DNA from: Bacillota bacterium
GTDB lineage: Bacteria; Bacillota; SHA-98; UBA4971
Length of the DNA stretch: 32,775 nt
Direction: 5' to 3'
Assembly: GCA_012516125.1 (NCBI GenBank)
Contig: JAAYXB010000087.1
Coordinates: 1-32,775 of the forward strand
The position numbers and the translations under genes are program-made. The notes under the pieces were generated by a model. The model searched no databases and was not told the origin of the DNA. It saw only the letters and a list, made by a program, of their open reading frames with translations. Below, piece by piece: positions 927 to 32,775 of the stretch. Numbering within the stretch: position 1 is the first letter of the stretch; every line of letters begins with the position of its first letter.

Positions 927-2397
927 ATGAGCACCAACCAACCGTCCCGCCCCGCGCGCCGGGTGCAGTGTTGAGGGTCTCGCAGAATGCCTGCCAGGTC
1001 AAGGGCGTATAATGTGCAAGCGCGTTCCTGGCTCTACGCAGGACGTCCACGTCGCAGTAGAGACCCCCGTAATCCAGGGCCCTCCGCGTCTTCAGGAACT
1101 GTAGGATCTCCGAGAACTCCGCCACAGGTTCCTGTTGGTTTAGCAAGCTCGCAGAGTCGGAGTATGACGAGCCCCCGGCTTCATTACAGCTAACACCAAA
1201 GCTGCCGGACCCCACGCATCCCGAATCCTCGCAGAATGGGACCCAGTCGTGGAACGCAGTCTCGAGGTATCGACAGATCTCTAGCCGCCTTGCGTCGATC
1301 AGAGGCAGGAGCAGCCTGGCTTGCCCCATCCACATCCGGTGCCTGAGGGTTACGGTGTTATTCAAGGCAGCAAGAGCCGCAGAATGAATAAAGAGGCCCT
1401 CATCAGGCTGCCAGTCGATCACACCGGCCTGCCACAGCGGCAGAAGACTTGCAGGGGGCGCTGCCGGCCGTTCACGCCGGGTAGCTCCCGGTCCGGAGAC
1501 AGAGGTAAGCCAGAACTTAGGATCAGAACACACGGGTCGAAAGCTTGAAACAGCAGGAGAGCCAGAAGCAAACGCCGACCCGGGCTGAATCCACGGCGTA
1601 CACGCAAGCGCGTCATCACCGCCAAGTGCGCGTGCCTGCTCCCACAGCCACTCTTGCGTCCAACCCCGTCGTTCAGCGAATCGGACCATGGTCCGTATCA
1701 CGTCGCTTGCTTCGAATCCCCTGAAATCCTCTTCTTCGGACTCATATATTAGGTGGCATAACAGCTCAGGGTCGGTGCCCGCAAGTTCAGCGCCTACCGA
1801 TTGTATCCACATTCTTACTTCATACGACAAATTCCTCTCTTCAGACACACTCGCTGCCACAAGAGCCATCTCCTGGGTGGATAGCCATCCCCAGTACCAA
1901 TGGACCGCGAGGAAGACGTCGCCTCTTATCGTTTGAGCCAACCTCGCGTCTTGGATTGGAATAAAGAGGGCACGCGATACCCCGGTCTCTGCGGCGTACC
2001 ATTTGGCCGCCTCACTCCACTCCGTCACAAGCCGCAACCACACCGGGACGATGTCCGGGCTTATCTCGTCAAATCCGGCGAGCAGCACGAGATCGGGCAT
2101 GCCATCGGCCGCAAAGAGATCCCGTACGCATACGTCCTGCTGACCATCCACCCGCAGCCCAAGGGCATCTATGAGAACCGCCTCCGGATTACCGTCAGCC
2201 GCGTCTGCCTGCACCGTTTGTAGCCTCACGGACCGCCACGCGCACGAATCCAGAACCGAACCCACAAGGTGTTCTGCATCGACAGTCTCCGGGAGAGCCC
2301 ATACGACGCTTCGGCCGGCGCATAAGTCATCCACTATCGACTCCCGGTTCCTTGACGGCCGCGGCAAGTCGCAAAGAGCTTTCAATACGTCTATCAT
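925..2397 (-). CDS. HEPN-motif protein with P-loop-less ATPase-like N-terminus
   Basis: This 490-residue protein has a C-terminal helical region (about 350-475) with the motif R457-NALA-H462 inside LRRARNALAHY. That fits the RX4-6H signature of HEPN domains, many of which are RNases in toxin-antitoxin and phage-defence systems. The N-terminal 200 residues resemble a STAND/AAA fold in outline, with a Walker-B-like hydrophobic strand ending in FDE (LVLLAGFDEIS, 103-113), but no GKS/GKT P-loop, so ATP hydrolysis is unlikely. A winged-helix-like segment (VIDWQPDEGLFIHSAAL) lies near 326-342. A disordered Ser/Gly-rich stretch (390-420) sits within the helical domain. The ATG at 2397 overlaps the stop of the upstream ATPase gene (ATGA), so the two are probably translated together. 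I infer an effector or adaptor for that ATPase. No named family is claimed. Confidence 0.7.
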   Translation of the reverse strand: MIDVLKALCDLPRPSRNRESIVDDLCAGRSVVWALPETVDAEHLVGSVLDSCAWRSVRLQTVQADAADGNPEAVLIDALGLRVDGQQDVCVRDLFAADGMPDLVLLAGFDEISPDIVPVWLRLVTEWSEAAKWYAAETGVSRALFIPIQDARLAQTIRGDVFLAVHWYWGWLSTQEMALVAASVSEERNLSYEVRMWIQSVGAELAGTDPELLCHLIYESEEEDFRGFEASDVIRTMVRFAERRGWTQEWLWEQARALGGDDALACTPWIQPGSAFASGSPAVSSFRPVCSDPKFWLTSVSGPGATRRERPAAPPASLLPLWQAGVIDWQPDEGLFIHSAALAALNNTVTLRHRMWMGQARLLLPLIDARRLEICRYLETAFHDWVPFCEDSGCVGSGSFGVSCNEAGGSSYSDSASLLNQQEPVAEFSEILQFLKTRRALDYGGLYCDVDVLRRARNALAHYTPLTWQAFCETLNTAPGARGGTVGWCS

Positions 2398-5300
2398 ACC
2401 GACACTATCACCCTCGCGGCCACCGGCTCGACCTTGAGGCCATCCGTTGTTCTTTCGACTATCCCCATCCGCACGAGGGTCTCGACCGAGGACGTCAGAG
2501 CTCTGCTGTCGAGACCCAGGTCAACATCAATCTTAAGGGAGTCATCGTCGGCCGCTGACACTGCAACCGGGAGGTCCTCAGCTGGTACAGGACCGAGATC
2601 GTGGAGCAACCGCACCAAAGCCGGCCCGTGCGGTATCTCGTCGACAGCGAGTGCCGTTCTAAAAGCTGTCCTTAACCCCCCGATGTCATTTCGCAGCGCT
2701 TCGTCAAGCTTCTCCGCCGCAGGCGTTGGATCAGGAAGGCCGCGTGTAGCAGCAGCTTCCTCCTGGATGAACCGCCACAGGTGCTCCATAAGCCAGGGCC
2801 AGCCCCCGGTTACCTCAAGGACCTTTGAAACCACCGGAGGGGTGCTCAGCCTCTCCGCGTTCGAGAGGAATCGTTCCACCATTCGGGGATCCCACCTCGT
2901 GATGACAACGAGGCTGTCCACTCGAGCCTCGACATCCCCAGGGGCGCCGCGAGATGCGTTCCACCAATGTCTCATTGCAGGAGGGTCGAACAGCAGAGTC
3001 CACCGAAGAGACCTGCTGCGGCTCCTCTGTTTCGCAACCACCCTGGCTATGGTCGCAACTACGTCTGTGAGCTGCTGCCGGCCTGCAAGCAAACGGCTCG
3101 CCCATGAACACGTGACCACGCGCCCGTGCCGCACGTCTCGTGCAAGCCTGGTGAGATAGGCCGCAAGCTGCTCTGCGGTAACACATTCGGGCGGCGTCTC
3201 CTCGCAAACAACCCTCGACCACCTATCGGAGGCTGCCGACCTTACAACGAGCTTCAAAGTGTGCGGAACTTTCGAAAGTCCCAGGGCATCGCTTCCGAAC
3301 ACCAGAGATACCCCGGTGGCCGGGCGGACAAGCTCACTCGCCTGCCTTACCGTCAGGGGGCTCCAGATGCCCTCTGTGGAACCAAGGTTTATCCTGAGCA
3401 CCGTGGGGTCAAACTGAGCCGGCGGAGACTGAGAAACTATCTGCCCGAGGCGTTCCCAGATCTCCTGCTCAGAACCCAGGGCCCGTACCACGTTTCCGTT
3501 CCTCAATCTGTACGCACCCTTATCGGATTTCACGAGTACCCCAAGACCAATCAGTTCCTCGAGGAAAGCAGAGATGTCATCAACGGAAAGAGACTCAAAT
3601 GCCTCTTTCCAATAGTAAGAGGCCAGCTCGAACACCTCCGAGGTCGAAAACTCACGGCGGTAACCATCCCTGTCGTTGAGTTGTTCAAGCACCATGGCGT
3701 ACACGATGACCTGGTAGCGACAGTCAAGGTCTATCGTCCATACGAAGCGCTCGCGCATCATGCGCCGGACGTCGTCACGTCGATAGACAGCCTCCACATC
3801 ATTCATGGTTACCCGGTAGGGAGGCGCGTCAGAGCGTTGGCGAACCAGCTTCAGCAATTCCTCACAGAAGAACTGGATCAGCGCAGGATGATAGTTGGTG
3901 TACGAGAGGATCCGGAGGATCGTATCGGTGTTTTCCTCCGAGAAGCTAAAGCCAAGCGCAGAGAGGGGCTCCACCACCAATTCCCGGGCCGCCTGCGGCT
4001 CGAGGGGCCCTACCACCACAGGTGCACGGAGCTGCGCGAACGGATGGTTGGAATGCGAGCAGTACCGCTGGACGCCGTGAAGCCCGCAGAACACCACCTT
4101 AAACCGATAGTCGGTCTGCTCCATGAGTCTCCGCAGTCGCTCTACTTCTTCGTAATTCGAGCCCGCGTCTGCAGCGAGGAAATTGTCGGCCTCGTCAAGT
4201 AGGATCAGGATTCGTACCGCTGACTCATCCTTCAAAACCTCCGCGATGCGCTGAACGAGAGTCTCAGGTGCGTCCCCAACCCCGCGCTGAAGCAGGCCGC
4301 GTGAGACTAGCCAGTCGCGCAGACGCGGCCACAGGTCAGCCGGACGCAGGTATCCCTGGGGATGCCCGAGAAGCTTGATATCCTGATACCATACGTAAGA
4401 GCCCTGGTCCGGCCGATCATACTCGCGTTCGACCATCTTGAGGAGGACGGACTTACCGAACTGCCGCCCTCCATATACGATGCAGCTTCCGCGCGGCTCG
4501 CCTATGTCGTGTATCATCGCCTGTCGTCCCTTGAACAGCTCAGGCGGTATGAGACCCGACGAGTGGTACGGCACGGCATAGCCCCACGCCACCCCGCACT
4601 TCACAGCAGCAGGCAGCCGGTTGTCTCGCTGAGATGCCAGGAAATACAGGAGCAACTCGTCCACGAGCATGGCCGTAGTTGCGTGCATCCGGCAGTACTC
4701 GCTCCACTCCTTTCTTTGCCGAAGTGTCAACCGGGCCATGTAAATTATGATCGGCCGCGCTGACGTGACCTGATAGTAGTGGAGCAGTTGGCCCATGGTG
4801 CTTGCGCTCGGGCGACCATACACGACCACCACGTGGTACTCACCGTGCCGGTCGGACCCAAAGTCTGCAAGGGGTGATAGACCCCCGGCTGACGTCTCGA
4901 CCACAAGATGCGCAGAGTTCTTGTCTGTGGCTTCTACTCTTGTTGACGGAGAACGGAAGCCCATGTACTCGAGGACCTGCTCAACATTCCGGGCAAACCA
5001 TGGATCGCAGCTGGGGCGCCCGTGTATCTTTAGGGTGCGGTAAGCCTCAAGCCCGCGTCTAATCTCGCGGCCGCGGGCACCGGGAATCTCCCGCATGTCA
5101 AGGCCAGCAACTGATCGCCTCTGCGCAAGGCTATCCATGACGGCAGTCGGCTCGCGGCGACTCTCGGCTTCCTCGATGGCTCTGCTGAGCTCGTCATGCA
5201 CTTGAACAAACTGCTCCACGACACGTCCGTCCGAGATGGGGTGCTCAAACTTGACGTCGACCCCGGTTGACATGGAAACCTCGGCAAAATGCAGGTATTC

Positions 5301-8300
5301 ATCGGCAAGGGGGAGGTCTCCCCTGTCTAGCGCCGCCCGAGCCTTCTCAATGAATCCTGTAACCGTCTCAGAAGGCGTGCCCTCTGAAGAAGCGCTTGCC
5401 ACCTGAAACTCTTCAGCGAGATTCTCCACCTGGGCTCGCAGGGAACTGTACCTCTCCCTCCTTAGGATCGAAAGTGTCTCTTCGATCCTCCCTAGATCGG
5501 CGAGCACCTGGCCGACGCGGTCGCTCCTCTGTTCCTCGATTGAGAGAAGGCGTGCATCAAGGGTCGAGCGGTCGGCCTCGCTAAGTACATGGTCTATCGT
5601 TGCCTGCTCGAGTGCAGCCCTCGTTCTGCGGAGAGCTTGCGCAAGGAGCACGCGCGCCTCAGTTCGCCGTGCACGCAGGCGCTCTTCAAGGGTCTCTCCG
5701 TCCTGAGCACCCATGTGCCGCATCTCCCGAAGCACCTCGTCGGCCGCGACGAAGTCGTAGGTAGATAGGTGGCGATCGAAGGCCTCACGGAGAGTTCGAC
5801 CGCCGAGCACTACCGCCTTGAATGGCTCCGATGGGAGGAACATGCCGCCCAGCTCGACTTCGCCTTCGTCGTCCACTGATACAGCGCCCACAAGTGGTTC
5901 GATAGGCGGATCATCGATCAGGAGAAGCGGCCTCAGAAGCGCTCGTTCCCACGTGCCCTGAGGTCCCTGGGATGAAGAAGGCGTGCTTCCCGCGGAGCTT
6001 TCCCGGCTTCGGTTTTCAAGCGTAGCTATCATCTCGTTGCACGCCTCGCACAAGAGCTTCCTGATCACAAGCTCCGCAGTGACAGGGATGGGCCCTGCGG
6101 ACCATGGCGCATCAGTGGAGGCACCGGTCTTCCATGCAGGCCATTCTGACACAGCCCCGTCGTGAGGAGTGCGGAGATAAGGCGATGTCAACTCCTTCAA
6201 ACACTTCAGCAACTCGCCATAAAGAGCTGATACACGACGAACATGTGACGCTGGTCTGGTATGGGTTGCTCGTCGAGACACAGCGTCCAGCCATTCTATA
6301 AGGAGCGCCCGGACGTCGTCAAGCTTCCGCACGATCTGCTCGAGTGCGCTTCCCTGTGGGCGGCCGATCCTCGCCCGATTGCCGCGCACGGCCTCGCAAG
6401 CCTCTTTGACAAGTGCTTCCATATCTTTCCGGTTTCCGAGGAGCTTCTGGAGCGCTTTGCGGACAACATCGCTGCGCGAATGGTCATTCCCGGCCGCGAC
6501 ATCCAGCGCAGACGCCAGGCTGCTCTTCGGACCGGCCAGGTACTTTATCACGTTCGTGGCCGTGGCAAATATGAGCTGGCTAGTGCCAGCGGCGTCTCTC
6601 CAGGCTCTTATGCGTCGCGAGGTCTCGGCGGCTCTGCTATCCCAGTCCACGTCGGCGAGTGCCTCATTGAGAACCGCGATATCCAGGGGCTCACCACGCG
6701 ACGTAAACTCAAGGACTACGCGGACAAGCGCACCCACAGGGTCGTCCGCAGACCCGGTCTCCGATTCGGCATCCTGCAACCAGTCACGGATCCCGGTCGT
6801 AGGTGCGAAGATCGTCGGCCTAAGCGCTATCGCCACGATGAAGAGCGCTGCCTCTCGTCTGGACACCTGCATCGCAGCTGCAAGTTCTGCAAGAGGCCGC
6901 GAGTGCTTCAGGCAGATACGATACAGGGCATCTATAGTCGTGGGTCTCGCCCAATCCGTTTCTCGGGCAAGGAGACAGGCAAGTATAGCCCAGGACGGTG
7001 GCACACGCCCCACCACACGCGTGGCTTGCCGTGGCTCCACCAGTTTCCCCTCGAGTGCCACTCCGGCCACCCTGGCGCGCGCTGCATCCTGCACTTCACG
7101 GACCAGCCAGTATGCAGTTCCGAAGTCAGCGCGGGCAATCGCCCGCCACACGGCATCCTCAAGCTCGTTTAGAACGCCCGCCGGGCCTGGTTGGACGGGT
7201 TTACTCTCGAGCATTTCCTCCTCAGCCGTCGGCCTCAGCTGCGTCGGCGCCCCCCGCCGCGTTGGGTCCTCTGGCTCCCCCGGTTCCGTCGGGTGAGTCG
7301 GCTCGGGCGGCTCAGTCGGCTCGGTCTGCCGAGTCGGTACACCTGACTCCGCCGGTTCGCCTGGCTCCCTCGGGCTCGTCGGCTCGCACAGCTCAGTGGG
7401 CTCAACGGAGTCAGCGGGCTCAGCAGGCTCAGAGAGCGGCTCCAGTTCCCTCGCTTCCCCCGACCCCGTCGGCTCTTCCAACACCTGGACTGGGTGTCCG
7501 CCGTGTTTCTTCAGATGGTCCTGACATGAGCGACCACCCCGGCTTTCTTTGCCTCCCTGGTCGCGTACACCCTCCAGGCCGCCCTGCGTGTCCGGCGTCC
7601 GCCGCACCTTCTCATCTTCTTCCTTGCCGCGACCGCACGCACGCTTGTCTTCGTCTTCTTCCCCTTCCCCTGCCCCTTCCCCTTGCTCTGGCCCCTCTCC
7701 CTGCTCCCCTGGCCGCCGCACCCCGGAGCTGGCCTCTGCTCCCGCCCCCGATTTGGGGCCTGGCGACTCAGGGCCTGCCGAGTCAGTTCCTGGCCAATCT
7801 GTTCCCGGCGAGTCGAGCCTCCTGGTTTCCGGACCTCCCCCGGGCAAGCTCGTGGGCTTTGCTTCGTACGTTCTCCGTTCCTGCCCGGGGCTCATGGCCG
7901 TCTTGAGTTCACCGGATTGCAATGGACTCTGAGCGAAGCAAGCCGACAATCGCGTTACTCCAGTGGTAACCATCTGCCTGATCTCTCCAAGGCGGCTCAT
8001 CCGGTCCATGTCCTCCCTAAAGGACGCCGGCTTTGAGGCAAGGAGGGCACGAGACTCCACAAGAAGCGCCTCGAGATCGGATAGTGCCATGTCGGCCTCG
8101 GACAATTGCTCGTTGGATAAACACCGATAACGCTCTACATCAAGAGGGAGGTGCCCCGCGACCTCATAATAGGCGAGGTCGCTCGCGTACTCGGTAGAGA
8201 GTGACGAGAGAGTTCGTTGTACCCGCTCTAGCAGGCAGGTTCTGGTCGACACGGCAGCTTTGTGTTGCTGCCAGGCTGCAACGAGAGCCTCGATAGCTTC

Positions 8301-9215
8301 ATCCAGCGCAGATGGGTCTACGTCGAGATCCGCGTTTCCAAGACGCCTGCATATGCTGTTCACCGCGGCCACGAGATCGAACGGCCCTTCCGGAAGCGAG
8401 TCTGGGGGCGAGTCCACCGGAGAATCCACGGGCAAGTCCGACAGCGCGTCTGAGGGAGAGCCAGGCGACCGGACGGGATCAAAGCCCGCTGGCTCGTCGG
8501 CCTGCGAGCATGTTGACGTTGGCGCACCCACATCCCTACCCGCTTGGCCGTCTTCACCACCGCACGCCACTATGCGTTCGGCGTCGTCACATAGTGACGC
8601 GCTGGCATGGACCTCCCCAAGGGTGGAAGGTTCACCGGCATTGGCGACCTGAGCTTCAAGTGGCTTGGACAGATCTTTAGGCAAGACGACTTCAGACACG
8701 CGGGTGTTCACCAGATCGAACCCGATCTCCCGCCTGAATTCATCCGAATTCATGATTAACGCAAACGCGAGGGCAGGCACACCGTACTCTCTCACCAGAT
8801 TATCGAGGTCGTCCGTGATGTCGCTAATGCTCATGGACGCCAGCCTGCTCGTGACATGCTGGAGTCTGCTCGCAAAGAAGGCGGATATGCGCCTGGCCTG
8901 TGGTTCCATCCTCCAGAGACGTTTCAGCAACCGCCGCTTTTCATAGGCGTTGCCATCAGCGTTGCCGTTAGCGTTAGCGCTGGCGTTGGTGTCGGCATTG
9001 GCGTCTGCGTTGGCACCGGCGCTGGCGCTGGCGGCCGTTTCGGAGGCATGTAGGGCCTCAGGGTCCTTTTCCCGGTCCTTGTCCCTGGTCCGCCGATGCC
9101 GCTTCTCACCAGGGCAGAAGCGGTCACGAGCAACCGTCAAGGCCTGATCAACGGTCTCGTCGGGAAGGGTTTCCACGTACCAATCGATGAACTTGTTCAC
9201 CGATTTCACAGCCAC
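2394..9215 (-). CDS. Giant multidomain AAA+/STAND-type ATPase, putative defence sensor
   Basis: The 2273-residue protein starts at a GTG behind GGGGGTGA. The N-terminal third is mostly disordered: an Ala/Asn/Asp run (about 58-90), Ser/Pro/Asp stretches (about 250-280), and a Gly/Glu then Pro/Glu/Thr-rich zone (about 450-680), with helical islands between. Helical domains follow (690-1100) and a coiled coil (about 1160-1270). An alpha/beta domain (about 1400-1510) comes just before the ATPase. The ATPase module has Walker A GGRQFGKS (K1588), Walker B LILLDEADNF (D1674), a sensor-like VFCGLHGVQR and a TNYHPALIQFF segment as in STAND/AAA proteins. A winged helix lies near 1885-1915. Residues about 1930-2190 look like a second ATPase fold without a P-loop, ending in TGGWPWLMEHLW, and a last winged helix closes the protein. 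A role as an NTP-dependent sensor for the coupled HEPN protein is inferred. No transmembrane segments are evident. Confidence 0.7.
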   Translation of the reverse strand: MAVKSVNKFIDWYVETLPDETVDQALTVARDRFCPGEKRHRRTRDKDREKDPEALHASETAASASAGANADANADTNASANANGNADGNAYEKRRLLKRLWRMEPQARRISAFFASRLQHVTSRLASMSISDITDDLDNLVREYGVPALAFALIMNSDEFRREIGFDLVNTRVSEVVLPKDLSKPLEAQVANAGEPSTLGEVHASASLCDDAERIVACGGEDGQAGRDVGAPTSTCSQADEPAGFDPVRSPGSPSDALSDLPVDSPVDSPPDSLPEGPFDLVAAVNSICRRLGNADLDVDPSALDEAIEALVAAWQQHKAAVSTRTCLLERVQRTLSSLSTEYASDLAYYEVAGHLPLDVERYRCLSNEQLSEADMALSDLEALLVESRALLASKPASFREDMDRMSRLGEIRQMVTTGVTRLSACFAQSPLQSGELKTAMSPGQERRTYEAKPTSLPGGGPETRRLDSPGTDWPGTDSAGPESPGPKSGAGAEASSGVRRPGEQGEGPEQGEGAGEGEEDEDKRACGRGKEEDEKVRRTPDTQGGLEGVRDQGGKESRGGRSCQDHLKKHGGHPVQVLEEPTGSGEARELEPLSEPAEPADSVEPTELCEPTSPREPGEPAESGVPTRQTEPTEPPEPTHPTEPGEPEDPTRRGAPTQLRPTAEEEMLESKPVQPGPAGVLNELEDAVWRAIARADFGTAYWLVREVQDAARARVAGVALEGKLVEPRQATRVVGRVPPSWAILACLLARETDWARPTTIDALYRICLKHSRPLAELAAAMQVSRREAALFIVAIALRPTIFAPTTGIRDWLQDAESETGSADDPVGALVRVVLEFTSRGEPLDIAVLNEALADVDWDSRAAETSRRIRAWRDAAGTSQLIFATATNVIKYLAGPKSSLASALDVAAGNDHSRSDVVRKALQKLLGNRKDMEALVKEACEAVRGNRARIGRPQGSALEQIVRKLDDVRALLIEWLDAVSRRATHTRPASHVRRVSALYGELLKCLKELTSPYLRTPHDGAVSEWPAWKTGASTDAPWSAGPIPVTAELVIRKLLCEACNEMIATLENRSRESSAGSTPSSSQGPQGTWERALLRPLLLIDDPPIEPLVGAVSVDDEGEVELGGMFLPSEPFKAVVLGGRTLREAFDRHLSTYDFVAADEVLREMRHMGAQDGETLEERLRARRTEARVLLAQALRRTRAALEQATIDHVLSEADRSTLDARLLSIEEQRSDRVGQVLADLGRIEETLSILRRERYSSLRAQVENLAEEFQVASASSEGTPSETVTGFIEKARAALDRGDLPLADEYLHFAEVSMSTGVDVKFEHPISDGRVVEQFVQVHDELSRAIEEAESRREPTAVMDSLAQRRSVAGLDMREIPGARGREIRRGLEAYRTLKIHGRPSCDPWFARNVEQVLEYMGFRSPSTRVEATDKNSAHLVVETSAGGLSPLADFGSDRHGEYHVVVVYGRPSASTMGQLLHYYQVTSARPIIIYMARLTLRQRKEWSEYCRMHATTAMLVDELLLYFLASQRDNRLPAAVKCGVAWGYAVPYHSSGLIPPELFKGRQAMIHDIGEPRGSCIVYGGRQFGKSVLLKMVEREYDRPDQGSYVWYQDIKLLGHPQGYLRPADLWPRLRDWLVSRGLLQRGVGDAPETLVQRIAEVLKDESAVRILILLDEADNFLAADAGSNYEEVERLRRLMEQTDYRFKVVFCGLHGVQRYCSHSNHPFAQLRAPVVVGPLEPQAARELVVEPLSALGFSFSEENTDTILRILSYTNYHPALIQFFCEELLKLVRQRSDAPPYRVTMNDVEAVYRRDDVRRMMRERFVWTIDLDCRYQVIVYAMVLEQLNDRDGYRREFSTSEVFELASYYWKEAFESLSVDDISAFLEELIGLGVLVKSDKGAYRLRNGNVVRALGSEQEIWERLGQIVSQSPPAQFDPTVLRINLGSTEGIWSPLTVRQASELVRPATGVSLVFGSDALGLSKVPHTLKLVVRSAASDRWSRVVCEETPPECVTAEQLAAYLTRLARDVRHGRVVTCSWASRLLAGRQQLTDVVATIARVVAKQRSRSRSLRWTLLFDPPAMRHWWNASRGAPGDVEARVDSLVVITRWDPRMVERFLSNAERLSTPPVVSKVLEVTGGWPWLMEHLWRFIQEEAAATRGLPDPTPAAEKLDEALRNDIGGLRTAFRTALAVDEIPHGPALVRLLHDLGPVPAEDLPVAVSAADDDSLKIDVDLGLDSRALTSSVETLVRMGIVERTTDGLKVEPVAARVIVSV
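7240..7445. repeat. Degenerate short tandem repeat coding for Pro/Glu/Thr linker
   Basis: The plus strand shows repeated variants of GGCTCNGTC and TCGGCTCAG. On the minus strand these encode Pro-Glu-Thr motifs such as EPTEPPEPTHPTEPGEP at about residues 590-660 of the giant ATPase. The frame is kept throughout, which is consistent with slippage expansion inside a disordered linker. A second low-complexity stretch (Gly/Glu, about 7640-7720) lies next to it. Confidence 0.65.
8948..9043. repeat. Hexanucleotide-like repeat coding for Ala/Asn/Asp run
   Basis: Variants of GCGTTG, GCGTTA and GCGCTG follow each other for roughly 90 bases. On the minus strand they encode alternating Ala-Asn and Ala-Asp (ANADANADTNASANANGNAD) near residues 58-90 of the giant ATPase. 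This is the same type of expansion seen at 30600-30740 in an unrelated gene. Confidence 0.7.
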
Positions 9216-25571: not shown

Positions 25572-25639
25572 GGCTGATGGCCACCGCACCGCGCGTGGCC
25601 CGGCGGGCGGCACGGCCGGCGGCTACGACCGAGGGCAGC

Positions 25640-25700
25640 GCGGGGGACGGTCGCGGAGGACTGTCGCGGGGGACTGTCGCGGGGGACTGTCGCGGGGGAC
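25640..25700. repeat. 13-bp tandem repeat, about 4.7 copies
   Basis: Units of GCGGGGGACTGTC start at 25640, 25653, 25666, 25679 and 25692 (the last partial). The third and fourth units are identical; the first and second differ at one base each. The array lies 68 bases beyond the hydrolase stop. It is not palindromic enough to be a terminator and looks like recent slippage. Confidence 0.85.
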
Positions 25701-28769: not shown

Positions 28770-29050
28770 CCGACCGGACCGGGCTGCGTTGAAGTAACGC
28801 TGTGCCTGTCCATGTTGTCGGGCTGGTCCCTCGGCGTCGGTGCTCCGGGCCTCGTCCGTGTTCTTGGCTTCAGGGCTATTCGTTCGCAGCACAGGCATCG
28901 TCGCACCACCACACCAGCACCAGGTCTTCCCACCACTACTGCACCACGTCTTAGCAGCACTCCAGCGCGCTCAAGAAAACTTCCCGAATGGGCCGGTCCC
29001 CTGCGAACATTTCCGGCCTGTGCGGCGAAGTATGTATGGGAGGCACCAGG
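28770..29050. other. Gap upstream of the sigma factor gene
   Basis: No gene or strong promoter is recognisable. The sigma operon promoter should lie here and may be recognised by the encoded ECF sigma factor itself, whose sites cannot be predicted from one sequence. Confidence 0.3.
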
Positions 29051-29746
29051 GTGGCCGTTCGGCGCTCCCCCAAGGGACGAAATCGCAACGATTCGGCTGC
29101 TGGCGCCAGTTCGTCCTCAGATGCCGCTCAGAGCAGGCGCGAGGACAGCGCCGTTCCGGGTGTGGGGGATGGCGAGCTTGTCCTGCGTATAGCGGCGCGT
29201 GACGAGGAAGCCCTTCGGCTTCTGGTCGAGGCTATGCGCGTGCCCATCTTCACGTTCGCAAGGCAGATCGTCCTGGATGATCATCTGGCGGAGGAGGTCA
29301 CGCAGGACACGTTTCTCGTGGTATGGGAGAATGCCCCGGGCTTTGAGGTCGGGCGCCGAGTGGTGCCGTGGGTGTTCGCGATAGCCCGCAACCTTGCGCG
29401 GACGGCCGCCCGCAGCGCGGCTCGGCGGTCGAAGCGCCTCGCCGCCGCTGGCCGGTGGGCTGACACTGAGGTGGGCGGCGTCCATGCTGATCCCTGCGCC
29501 GACCCCCACGCCGAAGTCGAGCGGGCGCTCCTCGATGGGCAGGTGCGGCGCGCCATGGCCACGCTTGCGCCGTGCTACCGGGAAGTGCTGGAGCTCAGGC
29601 TTCACTTGAACATGACGTACGAAGAGATCGCTGAGGTGTGCGGTATACCTATGGGAACTGTGAAGAGCCGGATCCACAAAGGTCTGAGGAATCTTCGGGC
29701 ACGACTTCGCGAACAAGGCATAAGAGGGGCCGAGGGGGAGGAGTAG
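29051..29746 (+). CDS. ECF-type RNA polymerase sigma factor
   Basis: A sigma-70 family factor of 231 residues with regions 2 and 4 only. Region 2 runs from LLVEAMRVPIFTFARQIV through EEVTQDTFLVVWENA to VPWVFAIARNLAR. Region 4 holds LAPCYREVLELRLHLNMTYE and the helix-turn-helix IAEVCGIPMGTVKSRIHKGLRNL. The N-terminal 45 residues are low-complexity (Ser/Ala/Asp/Arg), an extension unusual in the family. I chose the GTG at 29051 because GGGAGG lies seven bases upstream; the ATG at 29036 is the alternative. It is followed after two bases by the anti-sigma gene, the standard arrangement in which the anti-sigma holds the factor inactive until a signal arrives. Confidence 0.9.
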   Translation: MAVRRSPKGRNRNDSAAGASSSSDAAQSRREDSAVPGVGDGELVLRIAARDEEALRLLVEAMRVPIFTFARQIVLDDHLAEEVTQDTFLVVWENAPGFEVGRRVVPWVFAIARNLARTAARSAARRSKRLAAAGRWADTEVGGVHADPCADPHAEVERALLDGQVRRAMATLAPCYREVLELRLHLNMTYEEIAEVCGIPMGTVKSRIHKGLRNLRARLREQGIRGAEGEE

Positions 29747-29748
29747 GA

Positions 29749-30441
29749 TTGGGACGCTCCCGAATTCGAGACGGGAAAACGACAGACGGCGCCGCACGGG
29801 GAGGCCACGCCGAGAGCACAGGTTCCCGCTGGCGCGGCCTGCAGATCACCCGGCTGCAGATGACCCGCGTGCAGATCACCCACCCGCAGATCACCCGTCC
29901 GGCGAGGGCCACCCATCATTTGGTCCATCGGAGGGTCCGGCACATGCTTGAGATCTACGCGGCGGGTGGCGGACTTGGCTCCGAGGACGAGCACCTCGTC
30001 GAAAGGCACGTTGCCGAGTGTGCCACATGCGCCCGCAACCTGCGCGAGATCTCGGATCTCGCGGCTTCGCTCCGGGCCATGCCGTTCGCTGAGCCGTCCC
30101 TGAAGCCTGGGGAAATCGTCGCAAACGTGCTGGCGCGGTCACGTGCGGCGGGAGACGCGGCTGCCTCTGGTTCCACCGCCAGCGCACCGGCTGCGGTCAT
30201 GGGCCGCAACTGCGTGGGCCTGCAGCGTCTGTGGTGGGCAGAGTATGCAACGCTGGTTGCAGCGTTCGTCATAAGCCTTGCGCTTGTCGCGCCGAGGATT
30301 TGGTTGCCGGTGGGCCTGCTCAGGCCTGGTCTCTGCACGATCGTCTCACGGGTGCTGACGATGTTCGTGGCGGCTCTTCCGGTCGTGCTTCTCTGGGGAA
30401 TCAGGGCCGGCATCAGGCGCCTCCGGGAGGAGGCATTCTGA
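29749..30441 (+). CDS. Membrane-anchored zinc-finger anti-sigma factor
   Basis: The 230-residue protein has a cytoplasmic ZAS-type finger, VERHVAECATCARNL, with the HxxxCxxC motif. An upstream helix (HRRVRHMLEIY) probably supplies the first ligand. Two C-terminal hydrophobic segments follow: YATLVAAFVISLALVAPRI and IVSRVLTMFVAALPVVLLWG. It should sequester the ECF factor at the membrane. The TTG at 29749 is three bases past the sigma stop, with GGAGGAG upstream. The ATG at 29944 (GGAGGG upstream) is an alternative that would drop the repeat-rich N-terminus. Between the two starts lies a fourfold QIT-type pentapeptide repeat encoded by a 15-bp tandem array, not part of the normal family fold. 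Confidence 0.8.
   Translation: MGRSRIRDGKTTDGAARGGHAESTGSRWRGLQITRLQMTRVQITHPQITRPARATHHLVHRRVRHMLEIYAAGGGLGSEDEHLVERHVAECATCARNLREISDLAASLRAMPFAEPSLKPGEIVANVLARSRAAGDAAASGSTASAPAAVMGRNCVGLQRLWWAEYATLVAAFVISLALVAPRIWLPVGLLRPGLCTIVSRVLTMFVAALPVVLLWGIRAGIRRLREEAF
29839..29898. repeat. 15-bp tandem repeat, four copies, inside the anti-sigma gene
   Basis: The units start at 29839, 29854, 29869 and 29884 on the pattern CTGCAGATCACCCGG, each with one to four changes from it. The frame is preserved and they encode LQITR-like pentapeptides. The array lies before the zinc finger and looks like slippage that the N-terminal tail tolerates. Confidence 0.85.
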
Positions 30442-30443
30442 CT

Positions 30444-31490
30444 ATGAGCGATCGGCAGCCCTGCAAGGAGGGAAATGCTCGAGTTAGCGCCGCGGACCGG
30501 GTCCGGGACGAGGGCCAGGCCGGGGCTCAAACGGGGGTCGAGGGTCAGGGTTGGGATGGGACCGGGAGCCAGAACGCGCCACCGGCCCCGACCAGAGCCA
30601 CGACCAAGGCAAGCGCAAGAGCAAGAGCAAGAGCAAGCGCAGGAGCAAGAGCAAGCGCAAGGGCAGGGGCAGGGGCAGGGGCAGGGGCCAAGGCTAATGC
30701 TAAGGCTAAGGCTAAGGCTAAGGCCAGCGCCGAGGCCCAATCGGAACCGAACGATCGCTGGAGACGACTGACAATCACGAAGCGTTGGGTTGCGGTGGCG
30801 GGAGTCCTTTGCTTCCTCAATGTGGCAGTTGTAGGGATCTTCTTCGAACGCATCTTCCGTTACCTGCCTGTGACGTCGGCCAACTTATGCGCATACCAGC
30901 TGGCAGGCCTTATTCGCCACGATGCTGATAGGTCAGACGTCAGAGATCTCGTGGCGAGATGGAAGAGGATCTGCCCGGACATCCTCGTGGCGCTCGTTGC
31001 GAATGAAAACGGGCAAGTGGTCGTAGCATCCGAGGCGGTTCTGGAGGGTAAGGATATACCTACCAGCTGTCTCGAGAACAGGAAGGCGCTCAAGCTATGG
31101 ATATCTCAAGTCGCGCCCGGGGCGGGGCTGCACAGTGATCGAATCTACCACATTGGGAGCGCAGAAGCGCGCTCTGCCGCGCGGGGCACGTCTTATAGGA
31201 TATGGGTCGTGTGCCCGCCTGTGCTGTGTACGTCCTGGGTCGCGGGTGCTATCATGATAACGCACGCACCGAATGCGGAGTGGGGTCTCTGGAGCCTCAT
31301 ATGGTGGCTCTCCGTCCCAACATGGATGTACCTCGACAGGGTAGTCGCGACCCGCAAGGCCGACCGAAGCGCCGTCCTCTGGGCGCTCGCAGGGCTCGTG
31401 GGGAACGGGCTTGCCCTCCTGGTGTATCTCGCGGTATTCCATCCGAGGCGCTGTGCCATCGGCAAGGCCAGTGACGGTTCCAGAAGGTAA
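30444..31490 (+). CDS. Membrane protein of the sigma operon with extracytoplasmic sensor-like domain
   Basis: A 348-residue protein, third gene of the sigma/anti-sigma set, with its ATG two bases after the anti-sigma stop and GGAGGAGG about 11 bases upstream. The N-terminal 110 residues are disordered, with a long Ala/Arg/Gly/Lys run (about 52-100). A first membrane helix follows (WVAVAGVLCFLNVAVVGIFF). Then comes an extracytoplasmic domain of about 130 residues that resembles a Cache/PAS fold in its VALVANENGQVVVASEAVLEG segment. Two C-terminal helices complete it (GLWSLIWWLSVPTWMYL and LWALAGLVGNGLALLVYLAVF). Four cysteines (CAYQ, RICPD, SCLEN, VCPPVLC area) might form disulphides outside. 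A signal-sensing role upstream of the anti-sigma factor is inferred from position only. Confidence 0.7.
   Translation: MSDRQPCKEGNARVSAADRVRDEGQAGAQTGVEGQGWDGTGSQNAPPAPTRATTKASARARARASAGARASARAGAGAGAGAKANAKAKAKAKASAEAQSEPNDRWRRLTITKRWVAVAGVLCFLNVAVVGIFFERIFRYLPVTSANLCAYQLAGLIRHDADRSDVRDLVARWKRICPDILVALVANENGQVVVASEAVLEGKDIPTSCLENRKALKLWISQVAPGAGLHSDRIYHIGSAEARSAARGTSYRIWVVCPPVLCTSWVAGAIMITHAPNAEWGLWSLIWWLSVPTWMYLDRVVATRKADRSAVLWALAGLVGNGLALLVYLAVFHPRRCAIGKASDGSRR
30604..30738. repeat. Hexanucleotide repeat coding for Ala/Arg/Gly/Lys run
   Basis: Runs of GCAAGA, GCAAGC, GCAGGG and then AAGGCT follow each other. They encode successive blocks of Ala-Arg, Ala-Gly and Ala-Lys in the cytoplasmic tail of the membrane protein. 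The change of dominant unit along the tract suggests several separate expansions. Confidence 0.85.
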
Positions 31491-31731: not shown

Positions 31732-32775
31732 TGATCCCCCTGGGACCAGGTTGAAGGCCGGACCTGGTCCTCCGGGGACCAGCCCGGCGCGGAATCTGGT
31801 CCTCTGGTAACCACCCCTGCCGCCCTCCTTCACCAAGACCGGGCAAGGTGGAGCACCAGGGACCAGATCCCGCGTGAAGATGGTCCTCTGGGGACCAGCC
31901 TGGCGCGCGTTCTGGTCCTCTCGTGACCAGGACGTCTCGGCCGCCGCCGGGGGTGGTGCGCCAGGGACCAGGTTGCCCGCGAGGTTGATCCCCTGGGGAC
32001 CATCCGCACGCAAATTCTGGTCCCCTGGGGACCAGGGGTTTTTGGACATCTCGCAAGGTGGTCACGTAGGGACCAGGTGCCGGGTGAAGATGGTCCCCAG
32101 GGGACCATCTTCGCGCGTAACCTGGCTACCAGAGGACCAGATCCGGCATCCTCGTCGCCCGAGCGCCAGGAGGGTGGGTCTTTGGTGACCAGGTTTCGCT
32201 CGAGGTTGGTCCCCCAGGGACCACCTGCGCGCAGATCCTGGTCCTTTGAGGACCAGCCTCCCATGATCATGTGCGAAGGTGGTTACCTAGGGACCAGGTG
32301 GCGCTCGAAGTTGATTCCCTGGGGACCATCTCTGCGCGGATCCTGGTTACCAGAGGACCAGCGCCGGCCTTCCGCCGGGTGAGGCGCCGGGAGGGTGGGT
32401 CCTCAGTGACCACATTTCGCGCGGGGTTGGTCCTCAAGGGACCACCCACACGCAAATCCTGGTCCTCTGAGGACCAGCTGGCTAGGGGCACCCGGGAGAA
32501 TGGTTACGCGAGGACCAAGTGGCAGGCGAAGTTGATCCCCCAGGGATCATCTCGACGTGGAACCTGGTTACTAAAGGATCAGCGCTGGCTTCTCGCCGGG
32601 TAAGGCGCGAGGAGGCTGGGTCTTTAGCATCCACATTTCGAACAGGGTTGTTCCCCCAGGGACCACCTGCCCGCACATCCTGGTCCTTTGAGGACCACCC
32701 GTCCATGGGCATCTGGGAAAGTGGTTACGCCGAGAACAGGTGGCGGACGAAGTTGATCCCCTGGGGACCATTTGG
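31732..32775. repeat. Phased array of TGGTCC/GGACCA palindromes, 221-bp higher-order period
   Basis: Twenty-nine palindromic sites are visible, most 17 or 19 bp long, the best being perfect, such as CTGGTCCCCTGGGGACCAG (32017-32035), ATGGTCCCCAGGGGACCAT (32090-32108) and CTGGTCCTCTGAGGACCAG (32459-32477). They form triplets with centres 32 bp apart (for example 32067, 32099, 32131). The gaps between triplets are 41 or 52 bp, giving half-units of 105 and 116 bp. From 32061 on, the two alternate as an exact 221-bp period (GTTAC/GTCAC marks at 32061, 32282, 32503, 32724). Because 221 is not a multiple of three and long frames are open on both strands, coding is unlikely. The array runs off the window edge. 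Confidence 0.9.

Follow-up and report, generated by a model that had tools for sequence, protein, structure and literature searches.

A dispersed family of helically phased palindrome arrays in Bacillota chromosomes, conserved in geometry and divergent in sequence

The right-hand end of the window (the whole 32,775-bp stretch of DNA that was analyzed) holds an array of 29 palindromic sites at positions 31732..32775 (+), and our analyses strongly support that the sites of this array, like those of its relatives in other genomes, all lie on one face of B-DNA. We propose that the palindromes serve a putative homodimeric, probably helix-turn-helix-type, DNA-binding protein as a row of binding sites along that face, a reading that we consider probable. 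Neither phased sites nor centromere arrays are new as kinds of element; what is new here, at the least, is a chromosomal version that is dispersed, conserved in geometry, and divergent in sequence. No description of such arrays was found in the open-access literature searched. If our reading is true, these loci would represent a bacterial DNA-protein array in which geometry, not sequence, is preserved by evolution, with outer trinucleotides and helical steps shared by genera of two classes whose inner bases differ.

Each site is a 17-bp palindrome of the form TGG-N11-CCA with the consensus TGGTCCCCTGGGGACCA, which the 29 sites match at 9 to 17 of the 17 positions. Because the array reaches the contig end, 29 sites are a minimum, and its (+) polarity was taken from the triplet order common to other copies; the individual triplets have no strand assignment. 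The first triplet (31732..31813; centers 31740, 31773, and 31805) is the start of the element, and its 32/33-32-52 grammar is also present in other copies. It is followed by triplets at 31849..31929 (centers 31857, 31889, and 31921), 31954..32034 (31962, 31994, and 32026), 32059..32139 (32067, 32099, and 32131), 32175..32255 (32183, 32215, and 32247), 32280..32360 (32288, 32320, and 32352), 32396..32476 (32404, 32436, and 32468), 32501..32581 (32509, 32541, and 32573), and 32617..32697 (32625, 32657, and 32689). The first two sites of a tenth triplet occupy 32722..32770 (centers 32730 and 32762), with the remainder past the contig end. The initial annotation had proposed at least 29 palindromes at these centers, and all 29 coordinates were exact when checked, as were the steps of 32 bp within triplets (33 bp for the first gap) and 41 or 52 bp between triplets. 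A weight matrix built from the window sites recovered 29/29 of them and gave one weak extra match in the other 31.7 kb of the window.

Steps of 32, 41, and 52 bp correspond to approximately three, four, and five helical turns, and 32 + 32 + 41 bp add up to 105 bp, or 10.0 turns of 10.5 bp. A pure 32-bp repeat would yield a period of 10.67 bp, whereas the mixed steps return the average to 10.5 bp. The 29 window centers had a phase concentration of R = 0.96 near 10.5 bp, a value attained in 0.4% of trials in a control with three random step lengths, and chains of at least four sites at such spacings occurred in 0 of 120 composition-shuffled versions of six loci. Fitted array by array in 28 arrays of 10 genomes, where arrays of one genome share descent, the best period was 10.46 to 10.64 bp in 27/28 and 10.72 bp in one, with R of 0.88 to 0.99 at the best period. 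When gaps were jittered by up to 5 bp (first 20 arrays only), R was matched in 0 to 3 of 300 trials. These results bear out the earlier proposal that the sites face nearly the same side of the helix.

The host assembly (G000; 3.24 Mb in 98 contigs) contains the array in about 36 places, as the genome search called for by the initial annotation revealed. These places have the 32-32-41/52 spacing grammar, and many are broken by contig ends. All are intergenic, with none overlapping a gene called by our home-made Markov caller. Complete copies contain 21 to about 30 sites in a single grammar, 32-32-52-32-32(33)-41-32-32-41-32-32-52 and then 32-32-41-32-32-52 repeated, with repeat units of 105, 116, and 221 bp and a variable number of 221-bp units. 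Gap lengths across about 30 copies (495 in all) were 32, 41, or 52 bp in 463 cases, 33 bp in 26, and other variants of ±1 or +2 bp in 6. Spacing is thus nearly constant rather than strictly so, which refines the claim that no net insertion or deletion breaks it. The idea that the bases between sites vary likewise stood in part: they do among the units of one array, and across dispersed copies each linker is conserved, at roughly twice the variability of the sites. Heterozygosity across copies was 0.07 for sites versus 0.16 for linkers, and the outermost TG/CA (±7 and ±8) were nearly invariant (0.01; about 30 copies). A CRISPR array was considered and rejected, as the linkers are common to dispersed copies instead of forming unique spacers. 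As separate observations, many arrays (L011, L015, L024-L026, L029, and L037) are bordered at their 5' end by stretches of CCAGCCAGTCAG-type tetranucleotide repeats, and a GGCCGGATTTTGACACCCCTCGTGCAATCACCGGCAACC-like motif, possibly an insertion-sequence remnant, recurs beside arrays L047, L010, L031, and L015.

To find arrays irrespective of inner sequence, we searched 398 genomes from the phylum, the 17 from the class, and 154 from another class with a pattern that fixes only 18 bases, namely three TGG-N11-CCA spaced 32 bp apart. This pattern matched 65 times in G000, 61 in G004, 7 in G001, 3 in G003, 10 in G008, and 11 in G013, and, in one genus of the other class, 8 times in G389, 11 each in G411 and G412, and once in G413; G011 and G016 (the latter of the same class) also had single matches. 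The pattern was absent from the remaining genomes searched, a probable contaminant in G012 aside, and the reversed-pattern control gave 0 in every genome. The G012 matches were dropped, since the array sequence on its contig C28 is identical to that on C61 of G411 from another class and is probably MAG contamination. Four viral-contig matches were tandem repeats of nearly identical 32-bp units that lacked the grammar and were judged to be chance, and plasmid and phage collections gave no DNA match to the array. A stricter DNA pattern gave single matches in Actinomyces, Streptomyces, Siculibacillus, and a Coriobacteriaceae MAG, with no array at any of them.

The outer TGG/CCA is constant in these arrays and the inner half-site bases are lineage-specific (TGGTCC, TGGTCG, TGGTAGA, TGGYAAG, and TGGTCA), with TGGTCC being the window type, TGGTAGA that of G008, TGGYAAG that of G013, and TGGTCA that of G389 and its congeners. 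Arrays of G001 and G003, with sites such as TGGTCTCGTGGCGACCA and TGGCAAGAAAGTAGCCA, are barely visible to a plain DNA search and retain the 32/41/52 steps. Because loci were found via a 32-32 motif, only steps other than 32 bp are independent evidence in other genera; without a spacing filter, distances between successive sites in other genomes were 31 to 33, 41 to 42, 52, 63 to 65, 73, 84, and 116 to 117 bp, which sit near multiples of 10.5 bp. G013 alternates steps of 31 and 32 bp. Freely differing spacing among relatives, which had been raised as an objection to a phased array, was not what we found; multiples of 10.5 bp are kept even where inner sequences are unrelated.

These features suggest how such an array might work. 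The centers of the TGGTCC half-sites are 11 bp (one turn) apart, the half-site spacing of helix-turn-helix dimers, and a homodimer would read two TGGTCC-type half-sites within each 17-bp palindrome. Linkers contain weak TT/AA beside the sites (CCA-nn-TT ... AA-nn-TGG), pointing to a footprint near 27 bp, with which neighbors 32 bp apart would nearly touch. The mix of three-, four-, and five-turn steps would correct helical drift and thus place all dimers on one face of the DNA, where they may load side by side and form an unbroken protein track along that face, up to about 1.1 kb long. We infer the protein binding, the dimeric and cooperative nature of the binder, and its purpose from the arrangement of the sites. 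The initial annotation had likewise favored a dimeric binder; helically phased sites of the dimer type are strongly supported, but the single partition site or gene-specific operator that it also envisaged is unlikely, given that the copies number in the dozens and adjoin housekeeping genes with no relation to each other.

Since dozens of positionally conserved copies adjoin unrelated genes, a role at the level of the chromosome, in organizing or anchoring the nucleoid, is a real possibility, although one that we hold tentatively. Noc-binding sites, parS, and the chromosome-organizing ram sites of RacA are, like the sites described here, palindromes of comparable length scattered along the chromosome; unlike those single sites, ours are grouped into multi-site arrays. 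More tentative still is a fuller model of a hitherto undescribed chromosomal architecture system of Bacillota, in which a putative dimeric protein on dozens of dispersed arrays of 6 to 30 palindromes, kept in 10.5-bp phase by steps of three, four, and five turns, might form a one-sided filament that organizes or tethers the nucleoid, and in which inner-base specificity may have changed between genera together with the protein while the geometry stayed fixed. Knowing the binder would reveal if protein tracks a kilobase long are assembled at dozens of loci on bacterial chromosomes, and to what end: nucleoid folding, anchoring, segregation, or the needs of a selfish element.

The genomes compared are mostly fragmented MAGs, in each of which the copies are related by descent. 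The sister species MAG-64 (JACIXY, Bacillota; G004) has as many arrays as the host, often at the same loci, and of 17 MAG-64 loci that were fetched, about ten match a host array locus in their flanking DNA (approximately 87 to 96% identity). Many orthologous arrays of the two species are only 80 to 88% alike, which is no more than paralogues show. Part of the conservation is therefore explained by recent amplification and gene conversion, and ectopic recombination between arrays probably accounts for this equal similarity. Arrays are patchy among congeners, the three-site pattern finding none in G002 and G005, so any role is dispensable or replaceable in these two; G414 is a further array-free congener of array-bearing genomes. 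Locus L018 has orthologous flanks in all five congeners; G000 and G004 carry the array there, G001, G002, and G005 lack it, and its junctions are too diverged from the array-free congeners to align for target-site duplications. MAG assemblies are interrupted at the arrays, which also seem to recombine with one another. Loci L019 and L016 on contig C89 of the host were compared with L092 of G004: one array's upstream flank and the downstream flank of another, inverted array in the host meet at a single array in G004, which reflects either an inversion arising from array-array recombination or a chimeric assembly. A different dispersed repeat of about 120 bp at L018:6451-6572, with many copies in G001, G003, G004, and G005, is unrelated to the palindrome array.

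The patchy presence among congeners, as at L018, argues against an essential role and keeps alive a reading of the arrays as non-autonomous mobile or selfish elements whose palindromes are recombinase or transposase sites and which spread by transposition and are homogenized by recombination without host benefit. Dispersal, species-specific subfamilies, and the variable number of 221-bp units are also consistent with such an element. However, the arrays have variable flanks at both ends and lack both clean termini and fixed terminal inverted repeats, no transposase travels with the array, and about ten of 17 MAG-64 arrays share a locus with a host array. Furthermore, transposition needs neither same-face phasing over 1 kb nor a phase conserved across classes. 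We therefore regard a mobile element as unlikely.

Partition arrays were weighed by examining what lies near the palindromes, as a ParB- or ParR-type protein might load on them as SopB does on F plasmid sopC, which consists of 12 repeats of 43 bp with a 16-bp inverted repeat bound by SopB (PMC9178275). Like sopC and other ParB-type centromere arrays, the arrays are tandem short inverted repeats of a dimeric type near whole-turn spacing, with dimer binding established for sopC and presumed here. Unlike sopC, they occur in dozens of dispersed chromosomal copies rather than one, mix three-, four-, and five-turn steps, and have no par operon adjoining them. The check for nearby ParB/ParR-like or helix-turn-helix genes, which the initial annotation had proposed, turned up unrelated housekeeping neighbors by Pfam (RuvX, MreB, ArgRS, phosphoglucomutase, and polyprenyl synthase) and no recurring gene family beside arrays across genera as a candidate binder. 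Nearly every genome has two full ParB_N genes irrespective of arrays, and the number of ParB genes does not follow array presence. Canonical parS or Noc sites (TGTTTCACGTGAAACA or ATTTCCCGGGAAAT) lie near parB/noc, separate from the arrays, whose sites differ; these sites and ParB/Noc proteins are found in array-bearing and array-free genomes alike, and, because they exist elsewhere, the array is not parS. Two arrays of different families, G001 L167:3615-4375 and G013 L170:6349-7319, lie 0.5 to 0.6 kb from a parS beside parB/noc, which we treat as a lead only; the G013 contig breaks inside the L170 array near parS. Taken together, a partition array appears improbable.

The same neighbors bear on the possibility that the arrays are multi-operators or titration sites of a transcription factor that regulates adjacent genes. 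Sites of 17 bp with dimeric operator geometry in intergenic positions would suit such a factor, and the ComK boxes of Bacillus subtilis are dimeric sites at whole-turn spacings. LacI multi-operators have this property as well (PMC2553838). Unlike both, which comprise two to four sites beside regulated genes, the arrays comprise 20 to 30 sites each at dozens of loci. As many as 30 sites at one locus are excessive for an operator, and the housekeeping neighbors are often hundreds of base pairs away, so regulation of neighboring genes accounts poorly for the arrays and has little probability.

Whether the palindromes act as DNA sites or as paired strands was addressed through the sites themselves. 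An array of transcribed hairpins or a REP/BIME-like element, working through RNA (mRNA stability or termination) or as cruciforms, would fit palindromic, GC-rich, extragenic, and dispersed repeats whose polarity often agrees with that of flanking genes (few loci with both neighbors called). However, in the search for compensatory substitutions in the two arms, site halves paired no better than halves shuffled among sites in 7/8 genome groups (z of -2.8 to +0.9), with G003 the exception at weakly better pairing (z = 2.2). Selection for hairpins or cruciforms should have made the halves of one site match better than halves drawn from different sites. G:U mismatches between halves were about as frequent as A:C, which, with the lack of preferential pairing, is what protein half-sites would be expected to show; no covarying base pairs stood out in a mutual-information scan, whose top pairs were neighbor linkage, and the window had no Rfam match. 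Nor did the arrays appear to be an in-frame coding repeat, another reading that the initial annotation had raised: heterozygosity by codon position did not differ (0.117/0.107/0.122), no unit length of 32, 41, 52, 116, or 221 bp is a multiple of 3, and a 151-codon open frame inside many copies was rejected as coding for lack of a codon-position signal. The missing pairing covariation, the G:U frequency, and the equal codon positions thus make RNA hairpins, cruciforms, and coding repeats unlikely.

REP sequences are extragenic and palindromic, are regularly spaced in BIMEs, and have proposed roles in chromosome organization (PMC2817692). The arrays resemble them in being extragenic, dispersed, palindromic, regularly spaced, and species-specific. 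Unlike REP/BIME elements, they are helically phased over 1 kb in many lineages, keep TGG/CCA while the inner bases change, and show no selection of their halves for pairing. Their site context is GGTGG.../...CCAG, with no GTAG-type tetranucleotide 5' of the palindromes in copy and site consensuses, and RAYT (PF01797, Y1_Tnp) is absent from G000, G004, and G001, so the arrays are not REP/BIME by the defining feature. With a 10.5-bp helical period in every array that has no RNA reason, function as RNA or cruciforms is very improbable.

Other features of the window were also noted. A weak AAA/STAND NTPase domain lies around residues 1574-1790 of a 2273-aa open frame at 2394-9215 (-), which otherwise has no Pfam match. 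Positions 25639-25700 contain a nearly perfect 13-bp tandem repeat, CGCGGGGGACTGT x 4.8. A 419-aa open frame (30231-31490), preceded by a sigma-70-type gene (28988-29746), stops just 5' of the array and includes low-complexity 6-bp repeats (CAAGAG, GCAGGG, and GGCTAA) at 30605-30724.
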